Origin: Vibrio palustris
GTDB taxonomy: Bacteria; Pseudomonadota; Gammaproteobacteria; Enterobacterales; Vibrionaceae
Direction of reading: 5' to 3'
Length of the DNA: 64,000 bases
NCBI RefSeq assembly: GCF_024346995.1
Contig: NZ_AP024887.1
Span: 2,418,001 to 2,482,000, forward strand
The notes beneath the pieces were generated by a model that saw nothing but the letters and a program-made list of their open reading frames with translations, searched no databases and was not told where the DNA came from. A program made the translations under genes and the position numbers. Below, one piece after another: positions 5,162 to 26,794 of the stretch. Position 1 is the first letter of the stretch, and each line of letters starts with the position of its first letter.

Positions 5162-5367
5162 ATGGCGGATATAAATTCGAATCAATATCAGGCGACTGGT
5201 TATATTCAGCTATCTATACAGACTATACCGTAGATACCCATTAGAATTCGACCAAAATAACAACAAACCAGTTGATCGTAAGACGGGGATTCTTTATCAT
5301 AGCGCGCCTTAACGTTCTGGCCTTTAATATAAGAGCCTAAACGTTTTTTACCATTAACTTACGTGTG

Positions 5368-5418
5368 GTGTCCAACTTAGATTTGGATAGCGACACGGCC
5401 TAATATTGAGGTTATCCC
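5368..5418 (+). ncRNA. Probable ribosomal protein L31 leader of rpmE
   Basis: The rpmE 5' region contains a stem-loop in which GTGTCCAA (5368-5375) faces TTGG (5383-5386) and GACAC (5392-5396), ending about 20 nt before the AUG. Gamma-proteobacterial rpmE genes are known to carry structured leaders that bind L31 for autoregulation. Assignment rests on position and on this hairpin, not on a covariance-model hit. Confidence 0.4.
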
Positions 5419-25743: not shown

Positions 25744-26415
25744 TTATTTGCTCGGCGCCGTGACCAAACCTGGCTGGCTCACTGTGGTGATTTTACGAAT
25801 TAAGAAATTCAGCAATACCCCATACATAGGCACAAACAGGCCAAGGCTAATGATAAGCTTAACGCTATAATCAACTAACGCGATTTCCGTCCAATGCTCG
25901 GCCATAAACGCATTAGGGCTTTGATAAAAAGCAATAGCGAAAAAAGCGATAGTATCAAGCGCATTACCAAACAATGTGGATGCTGTTGGCGCTATCCACC
26001 ACTGTTTCATTTGGCGTAGGCGGTTAAAGACATGAATATCCATGATTTGCCCCAATAGATATGCCATAAAACTCGCGGCAGCAATGCGCGCTACAAAGAC
26101 ATCAAACGTACCAATACCCTCAAAGCCTTGATAACTACCATGAGCAAATACGATCGACAGTAAGTATGAGATCATCAAAGCAGGTAACATCACAAACAAG
26201 ATAATACGGCGAGCCAAAAGCGCCCCGTAAATCCGAACCGTCAGATCAGTCGCTAAAAAGATAAAAGGAAAGGTAAATGCGCCCCAAGTGGTATGCAAGG
26301 AGAACAGCGTAAACGGAATTTGCACCAAATAGTTACTTGAGGCAATCACCAGTAGGTGAAAAAAAACTAGGTATGTCAGCGCTTTGCGCTGTTGTGCAGC
26401 AGAAAAAGAAGTCAT
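25744..26415 (-). CDS. yhhQ: Queuosine-precursor (preQ0) transporter YhhQ
   Basis: 223-residue integral membrane protein with about six hydrophobic helices, very close to E. coli YhhQ (221 aa). Shared segments include HLLVIASSNYLVQ, FIFLATDLTVRIYG, FMAYLLGQIMDIHVFNRLRQ and APTASTLFGNALDT. YhhQ imports 7-cyano-7-deazaguanine for queuosine modification of tRNA. The ATG at 26415 is chosen for similarity to the E. coli start and for an AAGG ribosome-binding site 6 nt upstream; an upstream in-frame start at 26499 would read through the riboswitch. A preQ1-I riboswitch aptamer immediately precedes it, independent support for the function. Confidence 0.94.
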   Translation of the reverse strand: MTSFSAAQQRKALTYLVFFHLLVIASSNYLVQIPFTLFSLHTTWGAFTFPFIFLATDLTVRIYGALLARRIILFVMLPALMISYLLSIVFAHGSYQGFEGIGTFDVFVARIAAASFMAYLLGQIMDIHVFNRLRQMKQWWIAPTASTLFGNALDTIAFFAIAFYQSPNAFMAEHWTEIALVDYSVKLIISLGLFVPMYGVLLNFLIRKITTVSQPGLVTAPSK

Positions 26416-26421
26416 TATGAG

Positions 26422-26457
26422 CCTTTTTAGTTTGATTTGGGGGTGAGGGAACCCAAA
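26422..26457 (-). ncRNA. preQ1-I riboswitch controlling yhhQ
   Basis: On the minus strand UUUGGG (26457-26452) pairs with CCCAAA (26441-26436) around the loop UUCCCUCACC, followed by an A-rich tail AUCAAACUAAAAAGG. This is the compact H-type pseudoknot layout of preQ1-I aptamers: P1 of 5-6 bp, a UUC start to the loop, and an AAACUAA-like tail. Loop CCU (26448-26446) can pair with AGG (26424-26422), which is the yhhQ ribosome-binding site, giving ligand-dependent block of translation. The gene served transports a queuosine precursor, as expected for this class. Confidence 0.82.
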
Positions 26458-26794
26458 TAGAAAAATGGTTTTTATGCTAATTTTTGCAAATATCAGCATA
26501 GAGTATAGGGTCGCGAATTATACGCGTCTATTCGCAAGGTTCAAGATGCTAAAAAATAGCAAACGGTTCCCTTGCAAACTTTTTTGCTGGTTTGTTAATC
26601 AGCTCTCTTACGTTATTTCCCCGACATGGATGACGCTTTTTCTTGAGAAGATCGCTAGGATCGTGGTAATCTTCGCGTCCATTTTTCTGACTGACAGGGC
26701 GTTCTCTACGACGTTTTTATACAGTCAGTGCTATCTTTAAGGTGTAGTAAATCACCTTATGACACGCAATCACAACCAACGTGGAACCGAGCAG
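26458..26794. other. yhhQ-gmk divergent intergenic region
   Basis: 337 bp holding the promoters of yhhQ (minus) and gmk (plus). A nested inverted repeat is visible: GCAAGG near 26532 faces CCTTGC near 26572, with TGCTA-AAAAA-TAGCA in between. Short reading frames here have no ribosome-binding site or recognisable product and are not called. Confidence 0.5.

Follow-up and report, generated by a model that had tools for sequence, protein, structure and literature searches.

Here we report an element on the minus strand directly before yhhQ in the window, the stretch of 64,000 nucleotides of Vibrio palustris DNA that we analysed, and we are highly confident that it is a class I type III preQ1 (preQ1-I_III) riboswitch controlling yhhQ translation. 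We observed its sequence, conservation, covariation in P1 and P2, homology to the E. coli leader, target gene and uniqueness, together with homologs of QueC, QueF and Tgt in the same genome; the ligand, the contacts and the OFF-switching proposed for it are taken from the E. coli structure and would apply here by analogy. If they do, a compact preQ1 OFF-switch would stand before a queuosine-precursor importer in almost every Vibrionaceae genome of the sample. An earlier note on this DNA had described a preQ1-I riboswitch; its class, coordinates, P1, loop and A-rich tail agree with the sequence, and to the class we add the subtype (class I type III), which the note had not named. A literature search covering preQ1, queuosine and Vibrio or Vibrionaceae in titles and the starts of abstracts returned no paper on the element in Vibrio, the 2014 paper defining type III lying outside its scope. 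Type III preQ1 riboswitches were reportedly defined by McCown in 2014.

From 26457 to 26422 the minus strand reads UUUGGG UUCCCUCACC CCCAAA UCAAACU AAAAAGG, then CUCAUA and, from 26415, the AUG (start codon 26415-26413), and the Shine-Dalgarno (SD) AAAAAGG ends 6 nt ahead of this start. The loop between the P1 strands is UUCCCUCACC (26451-26442). Within it, C26448-C26447-U26446 is the anti-SD strand of pseudoknot P2, complementary to AGG 26424-26422, and U26451 and U26450 are the counterparts of E. coli (Eco) U6 and U7, whose roles are described in PMC10622847. By the same analogy C26442 would be the preQ1 specificity base. P1 could be lengthened through an extra pair, A26458-U26435. The window thus carries features by which type III is recognised: a short P1 with three G-C pairs adjoining the loop (UUUGGG/CCCAAA), a pyrimidine-rich loop beginning with UU (UUCCCU), four to five adenines followed by an SD AAGG that pairs with the loop (AAAAAGG; CCU/AGG), and occurrence before yhhQ that is almost confined to gammaproteobacteria (from NF008406 and the pattern samples).

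Table 1. Features of the yhhQ leader and gene in the window, with the evidence for each.
Feature	Position	Strand	Details	Evidence
preQ1-I type III riboswitch (probable), aptamer and expression platform in one	26422..26457	-	36 nt	Sequence; genome uniqueness; E. coli yhhQ leader homology
P1 5' strand	26452..26457	-	UUUGGG	Sequence; P1 covariation, 86 distinct cores
P1 3' strand	26436..26441	-	CCCAAA	Sequence; covariation
Pyrimidine loop	26446..26451	-	UUCCCU	Conserved in parsed loci; roles as described in PMC10622847
L2 loop	26442..26445	-	CACC, 4 nt	Parsed-locus comparison
Variable L3 linker	26429..26435	-	UCAAACU, 7 nt	Sequence
A-rich L3 end, Shine-Dalgarno and P2 3' strand	26422..26428	-	AAAAAGG; P2 3' strand A26424, G26423, G26422	Sequence; conservation; roles as described in PMC10622847
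yhhQ, 7-cyano-7-deazaguanine/preQ1 transporter, presumed regulated gene	25744..26415	-	223 aa	NF008406, 359.2 bits (cut-off 252); TIGR00697
Likely sigma-70 promoter of yhhQ mRNA	26517..26544	-	TTGAAC-16-TATAAT	Consensus scan; conserved TATAAT

The gene downstream, which the earlier note took to be a queuosine-precursor transporter, is indeed yhhQ by its NF008406 match. A longer open reading frame in the same frame begins at 26499 and runs through the element; the start at 26415 was preferred because it aligns with relatives and is preceded by an SD. Of 116 Vibrionaceae loci, 105 have 6 nt between SD and AUG and the other 11 have 7 nt. A consensus scan of the window for promoters is not significant alone (2 found versus 2.1 expected); TATAAT, however, recurs upstream in 98 of the 107 distinct Vibrionaceae stretches, where 50 shuffles average 9.5 and reach 15 at most, and the element is thus expected to lie within the yhhQ mRNA leader.

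Based on searches of its own genome, the element is unique. The pattern GGGTTCCCT-N1..6-CCC-N4..30-AAGG occurs once in 3.74 Mb, and the reversed-pattern control does not occur in the same 3.74 Mb. A covariance model trained on 22 gap-free Vibrionaceae cores out of 65, the window's own core included, gave one strong match in the genome, the site itself (E 1.1e-13), the next best match having an E-value of 0.82. The folding energy of the element is not above chance (-7 kcal/mol, z -0.11; 88 of 200 shuffled sequences are at least as stable). The case for the element rests on conservation and covariation, and stability contributes nothing to it. In the MFE fold of window 26422-26468 (minus strand), an extra pairing joins CC.UUUU, 5' of P1, to AAAA.GG of the SD; the upstream strand is absent by eye from the leaders of relatives, so this pairing is probably not functional.

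An alignment of 65 cores was made with MAFFT, and base pairs were counted with our own parser because MAFFT misaligned the tail. The parsed set holds 184 loci (124 Vibrionaceae and 60 others, many of the latter from family f25), which reduce to 86 distinct cores. Omitted from it were L191, L194, L210-L213, L227 and L228, which have no yhhQ directly downstream, as well as L001-L008, L120, L170-L174 and L230-L232 (own-genome duplicates, weak matches and E. coli gene stretches); L233-L247 stand outside the set, L233-L235 being unparsed and L236-L247 having been fetched later. P1 pairs 1 and 3 are G-C in 86 of 86 distinct cores, as imposed by the search pattern, and at pair 2, which the pattern limits to G/A with C/U, 83 cores have G-C and 3 have A-U. 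Pair 4 can form in 85 of 86 cores versus a shuffle mean of 70.6 (U-A 72, C-G 6, A-U 5, U-G 2, A-A 1) and pair 5 in 76 of 86 versus 42.4, figures that are tilted toward structure because the pattern fixed or limited pairs 1-3 and the parser picked the best-pairing L2 length; kinship among loci also inflates the shuffle tests of both P1 and P2 pairing.

The pairing of loop CCU with the SD AGG that the earlier note had proposed was borne out, both by complementarity and by covariation at P2 pair 9-30, and it is the mechanism published for E. coli (PMC10622847). Pair 9-30 is C-G in 77 cores, U-A in 5, U-G in 3 and C-A in 1, being paired in 85 of 86 versus a shuffle mean of 80.6; the C-A cell is an artefact of L214/L215, where the parser halted at a preceding AAAAGA. 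Families f10 and f21 account for the U-A type (7 loci: L153, L160, L216-L220) and family f207 for the U-G type (L222-L224), and these types provide phylogenetic support for loop-to-SD pairing. Pairs 10-29 and 11-28 show no variation among the cores and are uninformative, because the search pattern fixes both.

P1 doubles as an inverted repeat in DNA, and YhhQ has been reported as a member of the PurR regulon (PMC5372724), which would suit a DNA operator or protein-binding repeat before yhhQ with no RNA switch at all. We regard this as extremely improbable for several reasons: conservation is higher in the loop and A-rich tail than in the arms, which themselves covary; 6 or 7 nt separate the element from the start codon at every one of the 116 Vibrionaceae loci; the conserved TATAAT sits upstream of the element; and binding of preQ1 in vitro is reported for its E. 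coli homolog (PMC10622847).

Conservation in related vibrios, the lack of which the earlier note would have counted against its reading, is extensive. In the window's genus, 36 of 37 genomes (own included) have a yhhQ match, and the element is directly before yhhQ in 36 of 36; the sole genome without yhhQ match and element is G026, and the yhhQ of G010 has an internal TGA. Among named loci the element precedes yhhQ in 80 of 80, a set biased to close kin because it comprises the best 80 of 569 relatives. By title these are Vibrio, Aliivibrio, Photobacterium, Salinivibrio, Veronia and a few broader Vibrionaceae or Vibrionales names, and from them family set f1 was taken to be Vibrionaceae. Counted anywhere in the genome, regardless of position relative to yhhQ, the pattern is present in 240 of 247 family genomes; the other 7 gave no yhhQ match either, with a query that had a positive control, and two of the 7 (G849, G907) are contaminated or incomplete assemblies.

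Farther out, the pattern is present in 230 of 394 order genomes, and other same-order genomes with a yhhQ match have the element in 13 of 15 cases, the exceptions being G038 and G050 (distant, 26% match). In the class sample, the element accompanies 9 of 14 yhhQ matches of at least 50% identity (own included) but none of the 16 remoter yhhQ matches fetched. Class yhhQ homologs at 52-60% identity without a type III leader, as judged by pattern, are found at L122, L123, L124, L126 and L133. The phylum sample has the pattern in 58 of 398 genomes, 8 of the 58 outside the class; five of these 8 share a GC-rich stretch unlike a riboswitch, and the 3 of the 8 matches that were fetched (L236-L238) have no yhhQ downstream. 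For loci fetched by pattern or region (L175-L229, L236-L247), yhhQ is directly downstream in 56 of 67. The 11 loci without it (L191, L194, L210-L213, L227, L228, L236-L238) lack leader context and were set aside as chance or coding matches; at L210-L213, a conserved GGGTTCTCTAACCC...AAAAGG found in several vibrios away from yhhQ is coding-like and represents a chance pattern match. The loop is UUCCCU in 124 of 124 parsed Vibrionaceae loci and in 50 of 60 others, with UUCUCU in the remaining 10, under a search pattern that permitted these two forms only.

The window departs from the described subtype at L2, and the assignment to type III, made from the sequence, relies on the other features. 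L2 is 4 nt long in 120 of 124 parsed Vibrionaceae loci and in 6 of 60 others, while 54 of the 60 have 3 nt. The 4-nt forms in Vibrionaceae are CACC (58), CGCC (46), CAAC (12), CCAC (3) and CTCC (1). According to a review consensus, the specificity base of type III belongs to an 'AC' that comes ahead of the P1 3' strand (PMC11625349); the window has CC. The base preceding the specificity C is C in 106 and A in 18 of the 124 Vibrionaceae loci, and A in 54 and C in 6 of the 60 non-Vibrionaceae loci. Shifting the register so as to retain AC, at the price of a bulged C in P1, is 3.7 kcal/mol worse by a nearest-neighbour model. Genus g389, barely sampled in the 124 parsed loci, has L2 without any A (CTCC; 3-nt CCC) among the matches listed. 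Relative to E. coli, L2 of Vibrionaceae is mostly one base longer, and the ceiling adenine (the Eco A13 counterpart) would be mostly replaced or shifted.

The P1 loop of the T. tengcongensis (Tte) type II aptamer is 10 nt. The 10-nt loop of the window with its 4-nt L2 equals this length, and L2 is CAAC in 12 of 124 Vibrionaceae loci, so that the element might be a type II-like class I aptamer, to be filed as type II. This is highly unlikely, because the pyrimidine-only UUCCCU, the UU after P1 and the pairing of AAGG with the loop are type III traits (PMC10622847, PMC11625349), gene and position are identical to those of Eco type III, and a guanine occupies the corresponding place in the Tte and Can loops (PMC10622847).

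A second question raised by L2 is that of ligand selectivity, given the preference of YhhQ for preQ0. E. coli incorporates preQ0 in preference to preQ1 at 10 nM (PMC5372724), and the phosphate of Eco C12, which discriminates against preQ0, belongs to L2 (PMC10622847), the part altered here. Sensing of preQ0 by the RNA, alone or together with preQ1, is nevertheless very unlikely: the affinity of Eco type III for preQ0 is 133-fold weaker than for preQ1 (PMC10622847), and the remaining contact bases are conserved. In families f10 and f21 the loop is UUCUCU and the tail AAAAAGA, the pseudoknot strand being AGA with an AGG 0-3 nt downstream (the 7 fetched loci that carry the U-A type); the core SD would thus lie at least partly outside the knot. 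One f10 genome, G584, retains the usual AAAAAGG. We consider it unlikely that Vibrionaceae form a type III branch of their own, with an altered L2 that would hold the ligand differently and permit a response to preQ0 too, and that occlusion in f10 and f21 would be partly indirect. Since anti-preQ0 selectivity in E. coli comes from L2, such a branch may respond to preQ0 as well, and, if true, a response to both preQ0 and preQ1 would fit the two substrates of YhhQ. Natural variation in L2 and in SD spacing offers a ready series on preQ1/preQ0 selectivity and on the degree of RBS burial needed.

For the type III riboswitch that we favour, the E. coli structure suggests the following mechanism. 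When preQ1 is scarce, the tail would be free and the ribosome would bind AAAAAGG. When preQ1 is present, it would be read by C26442 in L2, by U26451 and U26450 and by the first SD adenine, A26425, and would stack on the top P1 pair, G26452-C26441. Loop C26448-C26447-U26446 would then pair with A26424-G26423-G26422, burying the ribosome-binding site and turning off synthesis of the YhhQ transporter, a feedback on uptake. The feedback put forward in the earlier note holds as logic, the ligand response being by analogy. The genome contains homologs of the E. coli proteins QueF (65% identity), QueC (68%) and Tgt (80%), so the cell can make preQ1 itself and put it to use.

The earlier note had proposed a covariance-model search with Rfam and had named the lack of a match above threshold as evidence against its reading. 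RF00522 (PreQ1) indeed gave no match at the site, either at its gathering score (39 bits) or at relaxed E-values, and the element is not a member of that family by this test. The E. coli K-12 yhhQ leader (L039 5100-5240), the RNA that was crystallised, equally gave no Rfam match up to E 10, and the miss is therefore uninformative. The RF00522 cut-off was exceeded in only 1 of 14 control genomes. A weak PreQ1 match at 26342-26376 (plus strand, E 5.1) lies on the opposite strand within yhhQ and was taken as chance. Elsewhere in the window, positions 5362-5412 (plus strand) match RF03157, the L31-Gammaproteobacteria ribosomal protein leader, with 63.7 bits, a known leader type. A 2013 survey using RF00522 recorded one or two proteobacterial lineages with preQ1 motifs, although the groups it covered included Vibrionales (PMC3766115); its sparse proteobacterial motifs, as given in that source, are consistent with a blind spot of RF00522. 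That the standard Rfam model overlooks type III, the crystallised E. coli example included, is a gap in the library, and annotation resting on RF00522 alone will miss the element in these gammaproteobacteria.

By comparison with known systems, RF00522 is nominally the family of class I preQ1 riboswitches, yet it recognises neither the window element nor E. coli type III. The Tte class I type II riboswitch shares with the window an H-type pseudoknot and a C as specificity base, but differs in its loop purines, in burying only the first two SD bases and in governing queT-type genes (PMC10622847, PMC11625349). Type III has been described from 293 sequences, almost exclusively from Pseudomonadota (PMC11625349), and yhhQ stands under various preQ1 riboswitch classes in different bacteria (Zallot et al. 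2017, PMC5372724).

The closest system is the E. coli K-12 yhhQ leader, AUUGGG UUCCCUCAC CCCAAU GGUUAAUC AAAAAGG ahead of the start codon, whose GGUUAAUC linker agrees with that of the crystallised RNA (PMC10622847), which PMC11625349 names as PDB 8fza. A Vibrionaceae-only model (R1), with E. coli outside its training, finds this leader at the right place with an E-value of 0.0012 in 150,795 bases, which argues for the window element as a member of type III. In this run, 27 of 37 sources were matched at E 1 or better, L153, L155 and L160 in part only; 10 of the 37 were missed, three of them motif-bearing (L125, L128, L129). As reported in PMC10622847, the E. coli RNA binds preQ1 with a KD of 57.9 nM by ITC and acts as a switch on a reporter in living E. 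coli cells; its loop CCU forms Watson-Crick pairs with the RBS AGG (U11-A28, C10-G29, C9-G30), and the first SD adenine touches preQ1 directly. The window differs from it in L2 (CACC versus CAC, one base fewer in E. coli), in the linker (UCAAACU, 7 nt, versus GGUUAAUC, 8 nt) and in the P1 5' strand (UUUGGG versus AUUGGG). Common to both are the gene, the site before the start codon, the GGG-UUCCCUCAC-CCC core, the A-rich L3, the AAAAAGG tail and the loop-SD pseudoknot. The mechanism is already known, and the element is a well-conserved, ordinary member of the subtype solved in E. coli.
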